Positions 2,699 to 56,095 of a stretch of 64,000 nucleotides of DNA are shown here, piece by piece. Both the position numbers and the translations under genes were made by a program. Below the pieces are notes generated by a model. That model worked only from the letters and a program-made list of their open reading frames with translations, ran no database searches and was not told where the DNA came from. Source of the stretch: a virus; the IMG/VR virus record IMGVR_UViG_3300023210_000001, positions 1 to 64,000 of that record, one strand, 5' to 3'. The stretch's first letter is position 1, and each line of letters opens with the position of its first letter.

Positions 2699-3436
2699 TC
2701 AGCGTGATTCCGCTGAATTCAACTCCTGGCACAGGGTGCCAACGCTGCCAGATGCCGCCGTCTTCCCATTCCTGAAAACCCATCCCTCCCTCAAAACGAT
2801 ACTCGCCGGTTCTCCCCCTCGCTTCGGCTTCGCCTCTTCCACCCTCGGATCGTGGACAAGCCCATCCCAACTTCCGACCCTTCTGAATTCTGGTCGCTCT
2901 TTGCCTGTGAACTTGTTCGGTTTGCTGTGATCTGGAACCCAACCGCTTCCGAATGATTCAGAACCTTTGCTTTCTGGAGATCCTGACGAGTCATACAAAC
3001 GGACAATCTCTTCCTCTTCCATCCCGAGTTGCACCTGTAGCCATTTGTCCGAGACATCGTGGTCGTCTTTTAGAGTCCGAATAATATCAGCCATCGCCAT
3101 GATGTAATGCGTTCCCCGGGCACGATTGTGAGTGATCGTCGCCGAGATCTGCTCCGGCACACTAACCTTCGGCAACATTACCACCGGAACCATCTCGCCA
3201 GTGTGTGCAGCAATCCGAGGATCTGACGATGCCAACCAGCGATGATAACCATCGACGATCTCGTTGTTTTCCCGGATGACAATTGGCTGAGTCCATCCGC
3301 AGGTCAGTATCGAAGCCACGAGAAGTTCCATCTCTCTCGGAGCAACCTTGTTCGGGTTGTACCCGTTCGGGTTCAGTTCGAAACGGTTGACCCATCGGAC
3401 GCTACTTACTGGCTGCGATTCGTGATTTTTCAGCAT
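2699..3436 (-). CDS. ParB/Srx-fold protein, IbrB-like
   Basis: 245 residues. The N-terminal half has a ParB N-terminal domain: NPNGYNPNKV at about 22-31, GWTQPIVI at 47-54 and the nucleotide-binding variant DGYHRW at 62-67. Placement directly after a PAPS-reductase-like gene reproduces the IbrA-IbrB pairing known from enterobacterial prophages. The C-terminal 60 residues duplicate the small protein at 2339-2575. The start at 3436 (MLKNHES) overlaps the upstream gene by 35 bp. Known of the family: ParB folds bind or hydrolyse nucleotides and DNA. A role together with the sulfotransfer-type enzyme is inference. Confidence 0.8.
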   Translation of the reverse strand: MLKNHESQPVSSVRWVNRFELNPNGYNPNKVAPREMELLVASILTCGWTQPIVIRENNEIVDGYHRWLASSDPRIAAHTGEMVPVVMLPKVSVPEQISATITHNRARGTHYIMAMADIIRTLKDDHDVSDKWLQVQLGMEEEEIVRLYDSSGSPESKGSESFGSGWVPDHSKPNKFTGKERPEFRRVGSWDGLVHDPRVEEAKPKRGGEPASIVLREGWVFRNGKTAASGSVGTLCQELNSAESR

Positions 3437-4595
3437 AGTACCTTTCGCTGCAAAGAAAGAACTCTCTGCTATTCGGGTCAACCGGACCCATCACCGCTTT
3501 CCTCTTCTTGAAGTCGCCCCGAAAAGCGAGCATGACGAGAAATTTCCACGATAAGCCGCTCACCGGATGCGGAACAGAAAGGATGGGATCTCTTGTTTTG
3601 TTGTGGTGCCTCTTGATCCAGGACCGCATCAACTCGGCGACCTCTGTCCGTTCTGACGGCCCCCATTTGCTTAGTATCGACACCGCAAACTCTTCCCAGG
3701 TAACGCCCTGCGGCTTTTCTGGAACTTCTCCGTAGGCATACAGTTTAGTACGACCATACATCGCCGCCGTCCCCGCACCTGGCACCCTCGACTGCATTTT
3801 GTCCCAGATGTCAGGCCAGCATTGTTTGTACTGCCACAAACCCCGCATCGGCTCGGCTCCGTATGGCGGGGCACACCGTTGTTGGCTCGGCTTGATCCCT
3901 GCACGATCCATGACATCGTATGCAACATTGTAATCCCAGTCGAACCTTTTGGGAGCGGTCCACACATCCTCCGTCGTCCAGTCATAAATCGGGTAGACCT
4001 TGTATTGATTGATTTCGGCATCAATTATGAACGCATTTTCTCGGTTGAGCGAATTCAGCATGACCCGCTGACGCATGAGGCTTTCATCTGCCCTGATCCC
4101 CATGACGATGCCAACGCTTCCCCATGTACTCGGAGGAAATAAAATCCCGTGCATCTCTGGTATCGGTAGCCTTTCAGAGATCACATCCGAATCGTAATCA
4201 GGGATCTTCGTGATCGCTTCTGGCGGCAGCGGCCTGACCCACTTGTCTTCGTCTTCGACTCCCCACGGATACCACACGGGACTCGCTGTGGAGCAAGCGT
4301 TCAAATGTACCACCGGCAAACAGAGCCACTTCAAATCGACCATCGGATTTTTAGATACCCGCCGCACATAATTCTCGGTGTCATAAGGGATCGCTTCTTC
4401 GTCGTAAAAGTAGCACGGGACTCGATCAATTCCACGCTCTTGAGCGACCTCTAGCACGATGTTCAATACCGCCGTGCTGTCTTTTCCGCCGGAGAACATG
4501 ACAACGATATGATCGAGCAACTCGTATGCTCTGCGAACTCGATCGAGTGCGAGAGAATATACATCTTTGTTGATCGTTTGCTTTTCGCCGAGCAT
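3402..4595 (-). CDS. PAPS reductase-like (PP-loop) protein, IbrA-like
   Basis: 397 residues. The PP-loop ATP pyrophosphatase motif SGGKDS is at 35-40 with the expected hydrophobic strand before it (HIVVMF). A C-terminal DUF3440-type region typical of IbrA-like proteins appears likely (MGIRADES, YKVYPIYDWTTEDVW, CAPPYGAEP). Phosphoadenosine-phosphosulfate reductase relatives activate a substrate with ATP; stand-alone phage versions have been linked to DNA or RNA modification. The gene starts in a TAATG overlap with the cupin gene, so the two are translationally coupled, and it is followed by the ParB partner. The substrate cannot be read from the sequence. Confidence 0.85.
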   Translation of the reverse strand: MLGEKQTINKDVYSLALDRVRRAYELLDHIVVMFSGGKDSTAVLNIVLEVAQERGIDRVPCYFYDEEAIPYDTENYVRRVSKNPMVDLKWLCLPVVHLNACSTASPVWYPWGVEDEDKWVRPLPPEAITKIPDYDSDVISERLPIPEMHGILFPPSTWGSVGIVMGIRADESLMRQRVMLNSLNRENAFIIDAEINQYKVYPIYDWTTEDVWTAPKRFDWDYNVAYDVMDRAGIKPSQQRCAPPYGAEPMRGLWQYKQCWPDIWDKMQSRVPGAGTAAMYGRTKLYAYGEVPEKPQGVTWEEFAVSILSKWGPSERTEVAELMRSWIKRHHNKTRDPILSVPHPVSGLSWKFLVMLAFRGDFKKRKAVMGPVDPNSREFFLCSERYYAEKSRIAASK

Positions 4596-12363: not shown

Positions 12364-12386
12364 CCGGGAGGGATCGACCCTCCCGG
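12364..12386. terminator. Intercistronic hairpin
   Basis: CCGGGAGGG / CCCTCCCGG perfect stem with 'tttgggtttttg' on the plus side, between the 85- and 353-residue genes. Confidence 0.55.
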
Positions 12387-42513: not shown

Positions 42514-42866
42514 TACGAAACCGTCCTAATCTGAATTGATTGTTTCACTTTTCGAGTCTGACTGTCGCCGAGAACGAGCGACCAGATCATATAATATTGA
42601 CCAGCGACCAGGGAAGTCGTGTCGGACGCATTCATCGTCACGCTGGTTCTCTTCGAGGATCTGATCCCGGTCGTGACGGACACGGTGAGATCGGTCAACG
42701 CCACCGAAGCCGCCGATCCGGTTGAATCAAAGAGGGTCGCCGTCCCCGAAGAGATCGTGAATGCCTGAGCGTTCACCTCGTCGAAATCAGCCGACACCAC
42801 GACGGTCGTTCCCGAGGTCAACATCAGGCTCCCTTTGATCGTCGCATCGTAAAGCATCACGCTCAT
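42513..42866 (-). CDS. Small beta-rich structural protein
   Basis: 117 residues. Ig-like strand pattern (KGSLMLTSGTTVVVSADFDEVNAQAFTISSGTATLF...QYYMIWSLVLGDSQTRKVKQSIQIRTV). Resembles phage decoration or BppU-like N-terminal domains. No catalytic motif. Confidence 0.55.
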   Translation of the reverse strand: MSVMLYDATIKGSLMLTSGTTVVVSADFDEVNAQAFTISSGTATLFDSTGSAASVALTDLTVSVTTGIRSSKRTSVTMNASDTTSLVAGQYYMIWSLVLGDSQTRKVKQSIQIRTVS

Positions 42867-45826
42867 CGTTTCTCCTTCAATAATCCTTCGAGAGAAATCG
42901 TCGCAGGTTTCCCTCTTACCGATGTTATCGCAGAACGCCCCTCAAGAGCAATCGTCATTGTCGAACCGGCGAGCAACACATCCGCCGTTGCAGACACGAG
43001 GTGCGTTTGATCGGAGACCTCGCCGATTTCGACAATCTCCGATGATTTTACCGGAGAAACGAATCTTGACTCTGCGACCGAAATTCCCTCTTGCGAGAGT
43101 TCGAGATATCCGGAAAGAGTTATCCCGGCTTCCGAAATGGTCAAGATCTCGGTCGTCGTCGTGGTGCAACCTTTTGAGATTTGCTCTCCGACGGAAACCG
43201 TCTCCCCTTCGAGTATCGTTGACGACTGCTCCCTGGATTCGACTTCCGTGATCGTCAACGATTCCGACCCGGATACCGAAGCGTTCCAGTCGAGGGCGAA
43301 CGACTCCCCGGTGGTGATCGTCTCCGTGGCGATCTTCTTGGCAGAGATCAGCGTTGTTTCTCCGAGCGTCACCGATTCGGCGACCTCTTCGACTGATCCT
43401 TCGATAGCGATCTCTTCTGAGGCATTCTCCGAGACCGTGACGCTCTCCGTTACGGATTGCGTGTACCCGACAGAGGTCGTTGAGGTCTCTCCGATGGTCA
43501 GCGATTCTTCCGCCGTTGCCTCCGTCGCCGTGAGTTCCGCTACGATCTGTTCGGTCGTCGTTACCGTTTCCGCCGAAACTATCTCCGCCGTGAAGGTCGT
43601 TTCGGATTGTTCTCCGAGGAACACCGATTCGGCGACCTCTTCGACCGCTCCTTCGATGACGATCTCTTCGGCGACATTCTCCGAGACGGTGACTGTCTCC
43701 GTCTGGAGGATCAGTTTTGAAATGTCGATGATCGGCGATTCGGAAACCGCTACGGTCTCGACGACTTGTTCAACGGCGAACTCGGCGATCATTTGCTCTT
43801 CGGTGAGCGTCTCGGTCGCAGTCACCGTTTCCGTTGCAACCTTCTCGGCTGTCACCGTGAGAGAATCGACCTCGGTCGCTGTGACCGTCTCCGTGTCTGA
43901 GATCTCGGCTGTCACCGTGAGGGAATCGGCCTCCGTCGCCGTGACTGTCTCCGTGACTGCGGCCTCGGTCGCAAACACGAGGGAATCGACCTCCGTTGCG
44001 GTGACCGTTTCCGTGTCTGAGATCTCGGCCGTCACCGTGAGAGAATCGACCTCGGTCGCTGTGACCGTCTCCGTGTCTGAGATCTCGGCTGTCACCGTGA
44101 GGGAATCAGCCTCCGTCGCCGTGACTGTCTCCGTGACTGCGGCCTCGGTCGCAAATACGAGGGAATCGACCTCGGTCGCTGTGACTGTCTCGGTGATCTG
44201 TTCGACGGCGAACTCGGCGATCATTTGCTCTTCGGTGAGCGTCTCCGTCGCAGTCACCGTTTCCGTTGCAACCTTCTCGGCTGTCACCGTGAGGGAATCG
44301 ACCTCGGTCGCTGTGATCGTCTCGGTGGATGAGATCTCGGCTGTCACCGTGAGGGAATCGACCTCGGTCGCAGTGACTGTCTCCGTGACTGCGGCCTCGG
44401 TCGCAAATACGAGGGAATCGACCTCGGTCGCTGTGACTGTCTCGGTGGATGAGATCTCGGCTGTCACCGTGAGGGAATCGGCCTCCGTCGCCGTGACTGT
44501 CTCCGTGACTGCGGTCTCTGTCGTAAATGCGAGGGAATCGACCTCGGTCGCCGTGACTGTCTCCGTGGCTGCGGTCTCTGTCGTAAATGCGAGGGTATCG
44601 ACCTCGGTCGCCGTGACTGTCTCCGTGTCTGAGATCTCCGATGTCACTGCGAGAGAATCGACCTCCGTCGCCGTGACTGTCTCGGTGATCTGTTCGACGG
44701 CGAACTCGGCGATCATTTGCTCTTCGGTGAGCGTCTCCGTCGCCGTGACCGTCTCCGTGTCTGAGATCTCGGCTGTCACCGTGAGGGAATCGACCTCGGT
44801 CGCCGTGACCGTCTCCGTGTCTGAGATCTCGGCTGTCACCGTGAGGGAATCAGCCTCCGTCGCCGTGACTGTCTCCGTGGCTGCGGTCTCTGTCGCAAAT
44901 GAGAGAGCATCGACCTCGGTCGCCGTGACCGTCTCCGTGTCTGAGATCTCGGCTGTCACCGTGAGGGTATCGACCTCCGTCGCTGTGATCGTCTCGGCGA
45001 TCTGTTCGACGGCGAACTCGGCGATCATTTGCTCTTCGGTGAGAGCCTCCGTTGCGGTGATCGTCTCCGTTGCGGTGATCTCCGTCGCCGCTGCGAGGGA
45101 ACCGACCTCCGTCGCCGTGACCGTCTCCGTCGCCGTCTGTGAGTGAGCCGTTCCTGCGGCACTCGCCGCCCGGAATGCTATATGCCACGAAACCCAATCT
45201 CGCCCACCAGGAGCATTACAAGACAGACCAGTCGCAATCGTTGTGCCTGTGTCGAGATCCTGCATCATTCCGATGGTGCCCTGGCCGCCCGTACCTGAGA
45301 GTTGTGCATCGATTGAGAAGCCTGTTGGTGATGGATTCGTGAATGTCGTATCTCTCGACCAGCCGACAAAGCCAACTTGTATAAAGTTGCCGCTGCCAGT
45401 CGGAGCCGCAACGAGGGACCATGCAACATTGCCGTTTCCTGTGTTGCCGCCACCTGTTAAAACATCAGCCGCTCCTCTGTACACGCTCACCGTGCATTTC
45501 TGTCCAGACCCTCCGTAACCAGTTCCGGTTGTTATCCTGTCTTCCGAGTTCGTCCCATGAGTTGCAGTAGTCCATTTTCCCCACCACACAGACAGCATCG
45601 CATTGCCATTTGTGCTGTAGTCCAGAAGTGACAGTGCGTGAGATGAAGTGTTGGCTGAATTCCTGAACCTCGGAGCCTCGCCAGCGACATCAGGGATATT
45701 GTCAGCATCCTTGCCGCCCATGACACCAACCAAAACGATGTCGCCATCTGCGAACGCCGTACCCGGAACAATGACCGCACCATCCGGGTTGCCGATTGTG
45801 GTGATATACGGATTGGTAATCGCCAT
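42863..45826 (-). CDS. Giant repetitive structural protein (20-residue repeats)
   Basis: 987 residues. The N-terminal 220 residues form a Gly/Thr-rich beta domain (GFSIDAQLSGTGGQGTIGMMQDLDTG). Residues about 230-660 are dozens of 20-residue repeats of the form ETVTATEVDSLTVTAEISDT, encoded by exact 60-bp periods. These are followed by a decaying variant (ESVTVSENASEEIAIEG) and a short C-terminal domain. Strongly acidic, Thr/Val/Glu-rich. Likely a long fibrous surface spike or head fibre. The mirror plus-strand frame across the repeats is an artefact. Confidence 0.8.
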   Translation of the reverse strand: MAITNPYITTIGNPDGAVIVPGTAFADGDIVLVGVMGGKDADNIPDVAGEAPRFRNSANTSSHALSLLDYSTNGNAMLSVWWGKWTTATHGTNSEDRITTGTGYGGSGQKCTVSVYRGAADVLTGGGNTGNGNVAWSLVAAPTGSGNFIQVGFVGWSRDTTFTNPSPTGFSIDAQLSGTGGQGTIGMMQDLDTGTTIATGLSCNAPGGRDWVSWHIAFRAASAAGTAHSQTATETVTATEVGSLAAATEITATETITATEALTEEQMIAEFAVEQIAETITATEVDTLTVTAEISDTETVTATEVDALSFATETAATETVTATEADSLTVTAEISDTETVTATEVDSLTVTAEISDTETVTATETLTEEQMIAEFAVEQITETVTATEVDSLAVTSEISDTETVTATEVDTLAFTTETAATETVTATEVDSLAFTTETAVTETVTATEADSLTVTAEISSTETVTATEVDSLVFATEAAVTETVTATEVDSLTVTAEISSTETITATEVDSLTVTAEKVATETVTATETLTEEQMIAEFAVEQITETVTATEVDSLVFATEAAVTETVTATEADSLTVTAEISDTETVTATEVDSLTVTAEISDTETVTATEVDSLVFATEAAVTETVTATEADSLTVTAEISDTETVTATEVDSLTVTAEKVATETVTATETLTEEQMIAEFAVEQVVETVAVSESPIIDISKLILQTETVTVSENVAEEIVIEGAVEEVAESVFLGEQSETTFTAEIVSAETVTTTEQIVAELTATEATAEESLTIGETSTTSVGYTQSVTESVTVSENASEEIAIEGSVEEVAESVTLGETTLISAKKIATETITTGESFALDWNASVSGSESLTITEVESREQSSTILEGETVSVGEQISKGCTTTTTEILTISEAGITLSGYLELSQEGISVAESRFVSPVKSSEIVEIGEVSDQTHLVSATADVLLAGSTMTIALEGRSAITSVRGKPATISLEGLLKEKR

Positions 45827-53824: not shown

Positions 53825-53912
53825 GAGGGAAGAACCTTTCCTCCCTCTCATAAAAACAAGTATAGAGCAAATCTGAGACGGGTCAACCCTATTTCGAACT
53901 TTCTCGGAAAGT
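53825..53912 (-). promoter_or_regulatory. Promoter cassette P17
   Basis: -35 TTGACC at 53881-53886, -10 TATACT at 53859-53864, palindrome ACTTTC-tcg-GAAAGT at 53898-53912, 5' stem-loop at 53825-53847. Confidence 0.9.
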
Positions 53913-53929
53913 ATTTTCGGTCGGATTCG

Positions 53930-54245
53930 GTCAAGGTCGGGCGGGAAGTCCGATTCCTGATCTAACGGATCAAACTTCGTGAAGGTCGGGCGGGAAGTCA
54001 GATCGCTGATCTAGCGAAAAACGATGTCCTGGATCGCCTCGAATAGGCGAATAGAGACAACTTAGAGCCGCTTCCGGAACTGAACTTCGGAGCGATCTCT
54101 CGGGAAGTCCGATTCCTGGTCTAACGGATGAAACTTCGGAGCGATCTGTCGGGAAGTCCGATTCCTGATCTAACGGATGAAACTTCGGAGCGATCGCTCG
54201 GGAAGTCCGATCCCTGGTCTAACGGATGAAACTTCGGAGCGACTG
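53930..54245. repeat. 49-bp repeat array A3 with a unique 85-bp centre
   Basis: One and a half units (53936-54012), then unique sequence (about 54013-54090), then three units in the same orientation as A1 and opposite to A2. The three later units resemble A2 (agcgatc variants), the first ones A1 ('gtgaaggtcgggcgg'). No gene lies in 53803-54301. Confidence 0.9.
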
Positions 54246-54266
54246 TTGTCGGGGAGGACGGTCCGT

Positions 54267-54290
54267 CGCCGGGGAGAATCTTCCCCGACG
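54267..54290. terminator. 3' hairpin after the 111-residue gene
   Basis: GGGGA...TTCCCC hairpin within 'cgccggggagaatcttcc', just beyond the stop at 54302. Confidence 0.45.
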
Positions 54291-54301
54291 ACGGGTTGTC
54301 T

Positions 54302-54637
54302 TCAACCGTTGATCGTGTAGAGAGCGGTCTGCGTCAGGGTGACGCATTGTCCGACGGTCTCGTACTCGGTGGTCGAGATCGCTTCCCGTCCGACCCTGAC
54401 CGTTTCACGGACCGCACGCTCGACGGCGGTGAACCATGCGACCGTCTCGTCGACGGTGATCAGCGAAGTCACTCGACCGTCGGCCTGGACAACCAACTTC
54501 TGGTTCTGGAGCGGGTTGTTCGCTCCGATATCGAATGTCAGGGTGAGTCCTTGCATGTCCATGTCGGACACTTCGACCGAGGCGATCCCGCTCGGGATCA
54601 AAAGGAAAGTTCCTTGGAAGTTGTTTTCGTTCAACAT
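54302..54637 (-). CDS. Unknown 111-residue cassette protein
   Basis: MLNENNFQGTFLLIPSGIASVEVSDMDMQG..., beta-rich N-terminal half, helical middle (VAWFTAVERAVRETVRVG). Not recognised. From P18. Confidence 0.7.
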   Translation of the reverse strand: MLNENNFQGTFLLIPSGIASVEVSDMDMQGLTLTFDIGANNPLQNQKLVVQADGRVTSLITVDETVAWFTAVERAVRETVRVGREAISTTEYETVGQCVTLTQTALYTING

Positions 54638-54668
54638 TGTGTTCTCTCTTTCGTTTCTGTTTCTCTTC

Positions 54669-54757
54669 GAGGGAAGAACCTTTCCTCCCTCTCATAAAAA
54701 CAAGTATAGGGCAAATCTGAGACAGGTCAACCCTATTTCGGAAGTTTCTCGAAAGTT
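54669..54757 (-). promoter_or_regulatory. Promoter cassette P18
   Basis: -35 TTGACC at 54725-54730, -10 TATACT at 54703-54708, palindrome TTTCTCGAAA at 54745-54754, 5' stem-loop at 54669-54691. Confidence 0.9.
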
Positions 54758-54773
54758 TTTTTCGGGGATTCGG

Positions 54774-55022
54774 TCACCGCCAGAGATTCAACTTTCGGAG
54801 AATGGTCTCGCCGCCGAACGGAGGAGTCGACTCCCCTTTGAACTTCACGAAATCCGGGTCGACCGCCACGGGTCGCTTCCGCCGTCTCCCTTTGTACGAT
54901 CCTCCGAAACGGATCATCATGAACCCCTTCTTCTTACCACGCTCGACCGTCCGAAGCATCTCGCCGGGAACCCATCCGCACGGGTTATAGGTCGAGAAGA
55001 CCATCACGGGTCTCGGTTCCAT
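54774..55022 (-). CDS. Small basic unknown protein
   Basis: 82 residues (MEPRPVMVFSTYNPCGWVPGEML...), basic centre GGSYKGRRRKRPVAVD. ATG at 55022 behind GGAAAGGGGAACG. No cassette promoter directly upstream; probably read with the tRNA-like gene and its neighbours from P19. Confidence 0.65.
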   Translation of the reverse strand: MEPRPVMVFSTYNPCGWVPGEMLRTVERGKKKGFMMIRFGGSYKGRRRKRPVAVDPDFVKFKGESTPPFGGETILRKLNLWR

Positions 55023-55036
55023 CGTTCCCCTTTCCG

Positions 55037-55059
55037 CCGGGAGGGTCGATCCCTCCCGG
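55037..55059. terminator. Hairpin between tRNA-like gene and 82-residue gene
   Basis: CCGGGAGGG / CCCTCCCGG perfect stem; the same hairpin also lies upstream of the tRNA-like gene at 55240. Confidence 0.5.
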
Positions 55060-55068
55060 ATATTTAGA

Positions 55069-55211
55069 AACCGCCGCCTGGATTCGAACCAGGATCTTCG
55101 TCTCGTCGACAGACGAATGTTCTAGCCGTTGGCCTCCTCTTGCAGAAGAAGACTTACTAGACCCCGGTCTCCACCTGCAAGAGGAGGCCAGTCCTGTTAA
55201 ACTACAGCAGT
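55069..55211 (-). tRNA. tRNA-like gene with a hairpin inserted in the D-arm region
   Basis: Acceptor halves ACTGCTG (55205-55211) and CGGCGGT (55070-55076) pair fully with two G-U. T-arm CCTGG-TTCGAAT-CCAGG (55077-55093) is textbook. Anticodon-type stem TTCGTCT/AGACGAA with loop GTCGACG (a 5-bp reading gives anticodon CGA; an Asp-like CTGTC reading needs four extra nt). Between GTTTAACAGG and ACGGCTAGAAC lies an insert of about 60 nt closed by a perfect 15-bp inverted repeat GGCCTCCTCTTGCAG / CTGCAAGAGGAGGCC. No encoded CCA. Total about 143 nt against about 75 usual. May be intron-containing, a fusion of two tRNAs, or a pseudo-tRNA. Confidence 0.6.
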
Positions 55212-55239
55212 ATTGTTTCCGTTTCCTTTGTACGATCCG

Positions 55240-55262
55240 CCGGGAGGGTCGATCCCTCCCGG
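55240..55262. terminator. Hairpin upstream of the tRNA-like gene
   Basis: CCGGGAGGG / CCCTCCCGG perfect stem, followed on the plus side by 'cccggtcaatgg'. Together with the one at 55037 it brackets the tRNA-like gene. Confidence 0.5.
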
Positions 55263-55272
55263 CCCGGTCAAT

Positions 55273-55327
55273 GGAACAGATCCTCGGTTGTGCCTCGCTA
55301 GCGGCGTTGCCTCCGAGAATCTGTTCC
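55273..55327. repeat. 55-bp inverted repeat, copy 1 (3' side of the 89-residue gene)
   Basis: GGAACAGAT-N-CTCGG pairs with CCGAG-N-ATCTGTTCC, a 15-bp helix with one G-U on the minus strand. The centre contains the palindrome CGCTAGCG. The last base is part of the gene's stop codon. Copy 2 at 55622-55676 differs by two bases. Confidence 0.92.
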
Positions 55328-55596
55328 TAGAAGACTTTGTAGTCGCCGTTCTTCTTCGAACGGATCCTCCAGGTCTGATCGCCGCACTCGACGACGATCG
55401 TTTGTACTCCTTTTCCGTTCCAGTTCTTCGGGACTCGTTTGATTCCGAAAATCGCCGCCTTCTGAGTGCGATTCGTGATCTGGTGCATGATGTGGATCAG
55501 GGAATCCCTGATCTTCTCCGAGGCGAATCGGAGATCCCAACTATCCACAGGTTCGAGTCGAGAGATGATCTCTTTCGCCGCTTCGATGTGATTCAT
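55327..55596 (-). CDS. Unknown 89-residue protein flanked by 55-bp inverted repeats
   Basis: MNHIEAAKEIISRLEPVDSW..., helical half then a beta half (GVQTIVVECGDQTWRIRSKKNGDYKVF). Not recognised. The coding sequence sits exactly between two near-identical 55-bp hairpin repeats, as if it were a movable unit or an RNA released by processing. From P19. Confidence 0.72.
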   Translation of the reverse strand: MNHIEAAKEIISRLEPVDSWDLRFASEKIRDSLIHIMHQITNRTQKAAIFGIKRVPKNWNGKGVQTIVVECGDQTWRIRSKKNGDYKVF

Positions 55597-55621
55597 GGCT
55601 TCTTCTTTCGTTTCGTTTCTA

Positions 55622-55676
55622 GGAACAGATCCTCGGTTGTGACTCGCTAGCGTCGTTGCCTCCGAGAATCTGTTCC
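55622..55676. repeat. 55-bp inverted repeat, copy 2 (5' side of the 89-residue gene)
   Basis: Same sequence as copy 1 except at two central positions (a for c, t for g), which leave the stem intact. Lies in the 5' untranslated leader after P19. Confidence 0.92.
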
Positions 55677-55696
55677 TTTCCTTTCGTTTCCTCGTT

Positions 55697-55760
55697 GAGG
55701 GAAGAACCGTTCCTCCCTCTCATAAAAACAAGTATAGAGCAAATCTGGAAAGAGTCAACC
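55697..55760 (-). promoter_or_regulatory. Promoter cassette P19 (no upstream palindrome)
   Basis: -35 TTGACT at 55753-55758, -10 TATACT at 55731-55736, 5' stem-loop with altered loop CGG but intact stem at 55697-55719. The TTTCTCGAAA palindrome is not recognisable upstream. Confidence 0.88.
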
Positions 55761-56005: not shown

Positions 56006-56095
56006 GAGGGAAGAACCTTTCCTCCCTCTCATAAAAACAAGTATAGAGCAAATCTGAGACGGGTCAACCCTGTTTTCGAAGTTTTCTCGAAAGTT
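56006..56095 (-). promoter_or_regulatory. Promoter cassette P20, overlapping the end of the upstream gene
   Basis: -35 TTGACC at 56062-56067, -10 TATACT at 56040-56045, palindrome TTTCTCGAAA at 56083-56092, 5' stem-loop at 56006-56028. The upstream gene's stop TGA is inside the -35. Confidence 0.92.

Follow-up and report, generated by a model that had tools for sequence, protein, structure and literature searches.

The locus considered here raises the question of what a tRNA-shaped gene with a perfect hairpin inside its D-loop may represent in a phage genome, i.e., whether it is a tRNA gene that has been broken, a tRNA that functions in an unusual form, or an RNA that only resembles one. The window, that is, the whole stretch of 64,000 nucleotides that was analysed, makes up nearly all of a virus record of 65,205 bases from IMG/VR, and its gene content, as seen in profile scans of the open reading frames (ORFs), is that of a tailed phage, with terminase, portal, P22-type coat, tape measure, primase, and ParB-like proteins. 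A ParB-like protein and a PAPS reductase/DUF3440 protein, the latter an auxiliary metabolic gene, are found at 2699-4595. A portal profile search of genome contigs for the host returned 28 pattern matches and 0 relatives.

The element was confirmed where the preliminary description had placed a tRNA-like gene with a hairpin insert, on the minus strand, running from 55211 (5′) to 55069 (3′), and no ORF of at least 60 aa overlaps it (Table 1). In the 5′ to 3′ direction, it consists of ACTGCTG, TA, GTTT, AACAGGACT, the 59-nt hairpin, AACGGCT, A, GAAC, A, TTCGTCT-GTCGACG-AGACGAA, GAT, CCTGG-TTCGAAT-CCAGG, CGGCGGT, and the discriminator T. The four cloverleaf stems and the invariant bases of a canonical bacterial or phage tRNA are present, with the acceptor stem and the T-arm intact, as first reported (7/7 and 5/5 pairs), and the tertiary partners, read from the sequence, also fit, i.e., T8, A14, A15 with T48, GG, A21, and TTCGAAT. 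The D-loop is not of the size found in an ordinary tRNA, given that 76 nt separate the strands of the D-stem.

Table 1. Positions, in the window, of the tRNA-like element, its parts, and the features that surround it.
Feature	Coordinates	Strand	Description
tRNA-like element	55069..55211	-	143 nt including discriminator base T; no encoded CCA; from sequence and structural scan
Acceptor stem, 5′ strand, ACTGCTG	55205..55211	-	Pairs 7/7 with 55070-55076, two G.U
D-stem, 5′ strand, GTTT	55199..55202	-	Pairs 4/4 with GAAC at 55119-55122, one G.U
D-loop motif, upstream copy, AACAGGACT	55190..55198	-	Near-duplicate of 55124-55130
Insert, 59 nt	55131..55189	-	Perfect 15-bp hairpin; 29-nt loop able to form 6 further pairs
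D-loop motif, downstream copy, AACGGCT	55124..55130	-	From sequence
D-stem, 3′ strand, GAAC	55119..55122	-	From sequence
Anticodon arm, TTCGTCT-GTCGACG-AGACGAA	55097..55117	-	Stem of 7 bp, loop of 7 nt with U33; CGA, in other register GTC
T-arm, CCTGG-TTCGAAT-CCAGG	55077..55093	-	5/5 pairs
Acceptor stem, 3′ strand, CGGCGGT	55070..55076	-	Pairs with ACTGCTG
89-aa ORF	55327..55596	-	Upstream, same direction as the element; no family match
82-aa ORF	54774..55022	-	Downstream, same direction as the element; no family match
Sigma-70-like promoter, TTGACT-16-TATACT	55731..55758	-	Part of repeat D6
191-nt stretch absent from L001	55027..55217	-	Element and downstream hairpin; placement of the ends ambiguous by a few nt
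9-bp palindromic hairpin, downstream of the element	55037..55059	-	Within the cassette missing from L001
Identical hairpin, upstream of the element	55240..55262	-	Kept in L001

The insert has the form that had been described, GGCCTCCTCTTGCAG-29 nt-CTGCAAGAGGAGGCC, and occupies the D-loop with a length of 59 nt. It is the sole inverted repeat in the window with 15 perfect pairs and a spacer of at most 40 nt, and none was found in five shuffles; the hairpin arm has no further copy in the window, with up to two mismatches allowed. The motif copies that border the insert, AACAGGACT and AACGGCT, differ by two single-base indels, so that any target-site duplication would not be clean. A miniature palindromic mobile element would be expected in several copies, but the insert is single in the window, and its exact-arm pattern has 0 matches in viral contigs and 0 in genome contigs. 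A fusion of two tRNAs, which had been raised at the outset, is unlikely, because the halves of both the acceptor stem and the D-stem pair completely across the insert (7/7 and 4/4). Two other candidates were also discarded, namely a type II tRNA in which the large hairpin would be the anticodon arm, in which the D-arm loop would have only 4 nt and the required bases, by eye, would be misplaced, and the remnant of an attP site, given that both halves of the tRNA are present and that no integrase was found among the ORFs scanned, a subset of the total.

The element is missed by the tRNA software applied here, and this is in favour of a chance look-alike, in which unrelated hairpins would merely suggest a cloverleaf, a reading that we consider very unlikely. 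Across the window, ARAGORN found 0 tRNA genes and no tmRNA, and Rfam at the gathering threshold gave 0 families, with no tRNA, rRNA, or tmRNA; a tmRNA was rejected, as neither ARAGORN nor Rfam matched such a model. The covariance-model comparison put forward in the preliminary description gave, for the half in which the insert is present, 13.9 bits with the tRNA model RF00005 at the intact locus, a match that falls below the cut-off of 29. With a lowered threshold, ARAGORN scores the intact element at 84.0, in a different fold of 81 nt, and the in-silico removal of the 59 nt raises the score to 98.9, while the score reaches 113.15 when a D-loop motif copy is taken out along with the hairpin, the tRNA then reported having a 4-bp D-stem but no isotype that can be assigned. 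A score obtained after a chosen deletion is nevertheless weak evidence, because composition-shuffled interiors (n = 60) reached up to 112.3 under free deletion, against 114.4 for the real element, which also speaks for the chance reading.

By contrast, the chance reading is opposed by the count of tRNA-yielding deletions, which is 410 for the real element against a mean of 24 for the shuffles, and neither this count nor the score of 114.4 was reached by any of the 60 shuffled interiors. It is also opposed by a scan for the full tRNA plan, which matched once in the window and in none of 1500 shuffles, under criteria that, like those of the looser scan, were set after the element had been seen. 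The looser scan demands an acceptor stem of 7/7 pairs, T and A/G at positions 8-9, and a T-arm that pairs perfectly and contains TTCRANY. The full plan further asks for four D-stem pairs, A14, GG in the D-loop, and an anticodon stem whose 7-nt loop includes U33. The looser scan also has a single match in the window, and it found at least one match in 9 of 200 shuffles and 65 matches over 1500 shuffles. Applied to known tRNAs, the full plan passes both of the acceptor/T-arm matches in L022 and none of the five in L023, and it is strict for this last reason. The plan-level scan and the count of productive deletions, both with post hoc criteria, are thus stronger discriminators than the ARAGORN score.

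The predicted fold of the RNA is stable, given that a 147-nt region folds at -66.7 kcal/mol, in comparison with -46.0 (sd 3.9) in dinucleotide shuffles (z -5.3). When the cloverleaf and the hairpin are enforced, the energy is -65.8 kcal/mol, i.e., within 0.5 of the unconstrained minimum of -66.3. In the unconstrained ensemble, which was calculated without modified bases or tertiary contacts, the pair probabilities are 0.998 for the hairpin, 0.91 for the anticodon stem, 0.75 for the outer acceptor pair, 0.16 for the T-arm, and 0.10 for the D-stem, and under these folding parameters the cloverleaf is predicted to be competitive yet not favoured.

The anticodon arm is a second part of the element that appears to depart from an ordinary tRNA. 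The claim that this region has four extra nucleotides depends on the register that is chosen, and the simplest reading is a stem of 7 bp and a loop of 7 nt, with two extra nucleotides overall, the element being 75 nt long once the insert and a single D-loop motif copy are subtracted. Three registers exist because of the short tandem GACGA-GACGA. In the first, 7 bp enclose the 7-nt loop GTCGACG, with U33 and the triplet CGA, and the AAGAT that follows resembles a normal variable loop; in the second, 5 bp enclose an 11-nt loop (CTGTC...) with the triplet GTC, while the third, chosen by ARAGORN, has 5 bp (TTCGT/ACGAG) and a 6-nt loop. ARAGORN assigns no isotype to the forms from which the hairpin was removed, and it gives Ser(cga) or others with other deletions. 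An anticodon arm that is two pairs too long, or that has a loop of the wrong size, would count against normal decoding.

These features bear on whether the element may be a functional tRNA with a permanent extra arm at the elbow, which would decode unprocessed, reading UCG in the register with the 7-nt loop, or GAC. U33 is kept, all of the stems are intact, and TCG is the commonest serine codon of the phage (467 of the 1214 serine codons in 46 chosen ORFs), all of which is in its favour. However, GAC is also the commoner codon for aspartate (518/955 in the same 46 ORFs), and the codon use does not decide the anticodon, given that both codons are preferred. Furthermore, the 7-bp anticodon stem would displace the anticodon, C37 and G32 are unusual, and the long variable arm that serine tRNAs of bacteria require is missing here. 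A permanent-arm tRNA is, given this, decidedly improbable.

A spliced tRNA intron in a non-standard position, either protein-spliced or self-splicing, was the first option to be raised for the insert, and it found no support in the analysis. It is true that the insert lies in the D-loop, in which some algal tRNA genes have introns, according to the portion of the source cited here (PMC3978253), and that ARAGORN, when introns are allowed, draws an Arg(gcg) tRNA with a 49-nt intron and a score of 103.6, but the D and anticodon stems of this version are broken. In addition, inspection of the cloverleaf-enforced fold by eye showed no bulge-helix-bulge at either border of the insert, the promoters are of bacterial type, and neither a splicing endonuclease, or other splicing proteins, nor an RNA ligase was found among the ORFs scanned. 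The length of the insert also falls well short of that of a group I intron, and it matches no self-splicing family of Rfam at gathering, nor any credible weak one. Splicing of either type is extremely improbable.

A different possibility is an insert similar to the intervening sequences (IVSs) of rRNA, in which the host RNase III would excise the hairpin without rejoining the ends, and the acceptor stem and D-stem would hold together a tRNA in two pieces. The 15 perfect pairs, with six more in the loop, provide a plausible substrate for RNase III, located in a loop that may tolerate a break in the chain, and the architecture is the same as that of the rRNA IVSs, in which, as set out in the cited excerpt, a stem-loop replaces a small loop and is excised by RNase III without ligation (PMC4990558). 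On the other hand, this excerpt describes IVSs in rRNA, not in tRNA (PMC4990558), and the anticodon arm is also abnormal, which means that the nicked molecule would keep its decoding problem. We regard this reading as unlikely. That a phage tRNA with an IVS would be converted by RNase III into a nicked two-piece tRNA, which may be either a working tRNA or a modified one insensitive to a host defence that cuts tRNAs, is distinctly unlikely.

The search for relatives also offers little company to the element. The preliminary description had proposed a search for the insert in other phage tRNAs; its exact arms, with 15-45 nt between them, gave 0 stretches in viral contigs, and the same pattern gave 0 stretches in genome contigs. 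In the collections searched, the 5′ part of the tRNA-like gene, CTGTAGTTTAACAGGACT, had 0 matches, as did the pattern of its T-arm and acceptor, while a split D-arm pattern with 53-83 nt between its halves returned 8 stretches, all 8 of them due to chance, by eye, and with no ARAGORN tRNA. A blastn search with 161 nt returned 12 phage records, with short pieces only (11 in the T-arm region and one at the upstream end), and one plasmid record, in which the match is within a protein gene. Only the T-arm and the 3′ acceptor strand match known tRNAs in annotated phage genomes, over 24-26 nt, the match of 24 nt being to the tRNA-Asn of Streptomyces phages. As no relatives of either the hairpin or the gene were found, the insert is a singleton within these collections, and the searches of open-licence PMC papers yielded no account of a phage tRNA with a hairpin inserted in its D-loop. 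In the Microbacterium phage Shocker (L024:255-335), an unannotated T-arm, with an acceptor-like strand after it, lies between two genes, where ARAGORN is silent, and this is possibly another atypical tRNA-like element.

These searches are relevant to a dedicated regulatory RNA or decoy, i.e., a tRNA mimic with an added helix, which may act, for example, as bait for a tRNA-cutting defence. The stable fold (z -5.3) and the intact elements would suit such an RNA, as would its behaviour as a cassette, which is typical of accessory phage genes, but it has no relatives in the collections searched, and its insert lacks target complementarity in the phage. Away from its own site, the insert has exact matches in the window of at most 9 nt on one strand and 10 nt on the other, which is not above the shuffles, and the pairing of the insert with a target within the phage genome was rejected for this reason. 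A dedicated role of this type is unlikely.

Comparison with close relatives indicates that the element may come and go as a unit. In the alignment with L001, a phage contig that is 99.5% identical over 8.8 kb, 191 nt of this locus are absent, including the downstream hairpin, CCGGGAGGG; L001 keeps the upstream hairpin and the spacer CGGATCGTACAAAGGAAACGGAAAC, and then passes directly to the start of the 82-aa ORF. L002, with 99.4% identity over 8.3 kb, is missing everything at ~53.9-55.7 kb (53890-55672). The element is thus present in neither of the two close relatives that reach the locus, and is therefore dispensable, forming with its downstream hairpin an optional cassette; the comparison fits either a gain here or a loss in the relatives. 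An RF00005 match was found in 0 of 10 portal-related contigs, but 8 of these, the more distant, are short contigs that need not cover the region.

The two flanking CCGGGAGGGATCGACCCTCCCGG hairpins (55037-55059 and 55240-55262) are identical, as reported, but the suggestion that they bracket the gene as if designed for its excision is not supported by L001, which retains the upstream hairpin and spacer without the cassette. The junction lies at a GGAAAC/GGGAAC microhomology, some 20 nt beyond the upstream hairpin, and excision by recombination between the hairpins was rejected on the basis of this position. Nor are the hairpins special to the tRNA-like gene, given that there are further copies of the 23-nt sequence, one at 2294 and one on the opposite strand at 12364.

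Repeats are found in other parts of the window. Both ends of the L002 gap (53890-55672) fall inside copies of a promoter repeat, from which it appears that cassettes of small genes are lost by recombination between repeats. This promoter-leader block (repeat D6), formed by TTGAC-16-TATACT and then a GAGGGAGGAAC..GTTCTTCCCTC hairpin leader, has 20 copies in the window, including 55731-55758, 54703-54730, and 56040-56067. Two hairpin-forming repeats of 56 nt, GGAACAGAT...ATCTGTTCC, which are 96% identical, flank the 89-aa ORF at 55273-55328 and 55622-55677, in parallel with the pair of hairpins around the tRNA-like element, and GGATCGTACAAAGG occurs twice on the minus strand, at 54889, within the 82-aa ORF, and at 55225, just upstream of the element. 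Further away, a 49-nt tandem array occupies 1214-2150, with 14 overlapping copies of 300 nt at a spacing of 49 nt that are ~95% identical in mid-array, and arrays with a period of 10 nt, at 2013-2318 and from 50269, are mutually similar though 48 kb apart. A 987-aa ORF on the minus strand (42863-45826), with no PHROG match, contains many 60-nt repeats at 43295-45130.

The reading that we prefer, and to which we give an even chance, is that of a phage tRNA gene whose D-loop has been broken by the 59-nt palindromic insert, and which, while probably non-decoding, would still be a substrate of RNase P and is carried as an optional cassette. The tRNA-shaped regulatory RNA that was the third option of the preliminary description is, if taken as an RNA that does not decode, close to this. 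From the architecture of the locus, we infer the following functions. The nearest promoter found on the minus strand upstream of the 89-aa ORF and the element is at 55758-55731, and the element would, because of this, probably be transcribed from this TTGACT/TATACT promoter together with both ORFs. The RNA would then fold into the acceptor stem and T-arm, the D-stem, the anticodon arm, and a long extra helix leaving the elbow. As RNase P recognises the stack of the acceptor and T-arm, and also cuts other RNAs that present such a stack, according to the excerpt of the source cited (PMC4919913), the host enzyme, by measuring this stack, would be expected to cut before 55211, and a 3′ tRNA nuclease would cut after 55069, so that the element would at least separate the two mRNAs. 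With the insert in the elbow and an anticodon arm that is 2 bp too long or has an abnormal loop, the RNA would not decode, and splicing would be neither needed nor expected.

Three observations count against this preferred reading of a broken, non-decoding tRNA gene. The D-stem and the T-arm are mostly unformed in the unconstrained ensemble, the two D-loop motif copies are not a clean duplication, and the element keeps all of its stems and tertiary partners, a degree of preservation beyond that expected of a pseudogene in long decay. The intact stems may reflect either a recent interruption or selection on the RNA.

The element, as one sequence with no relatives found, is a lead rather than a discovery, but its implications may reach beyond this phage. 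Given that both ARAGORN and RF00005 miss it, genes interrupted in the D-loop could widely escape notice in phage genomes. Excision of the hairpin by RNase III, if it occurs, would extend the principle of the rRNA IVSs to tRNA and provide a natural two-piece tRNA in a bacterial system. If the broken gene is kept for its acceptor and T-arm, it would represent a tRNA mimic that directs cleavage between phage genes.

In comparison with known systems, the element shares with ordinary phage tRNA genes the acceptor stem, T-arm, D-stem, and invariant bases, together with the 24-nt match to a Streptomyces phage tRNA-Asn, but it differs from them in its 59-nt D-loop hairpin, an anticodon stem of 7 bp in the simplest register, the lack of an assignable isotype, and its score below the cut-off of the tRNA model. 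It is regarded as a variant of a phage tRNA gene, and the function ascribed to it is putative. RNAC and RNAD of phage T4 adjoin the T4 tRNA genes. They may be likened to the element by their description in the excerpt cited, i.e., as phage small RNAs of unknown function (PMC9697503). The D-loop introns and permutation junctions of algal and archaeal tRNAs, as presented in the cited portion of the source, also interrupt the D-loop (PMC3978253), but these are processed at a bulge-helix-bulge, none of which was read in the phage element. Finally, in the IVSs of the 23S and 16S rRNAs, the host RNA is an rRNA rather than a phage tRNA-like RNA, for which cutting by RNase III is putative; the likeness lies in a stem-loop with complementary ends that replaces or enlarges a small loop, and in a sporadic presence, both of which are described in the excerpt cited (PMC4990558).
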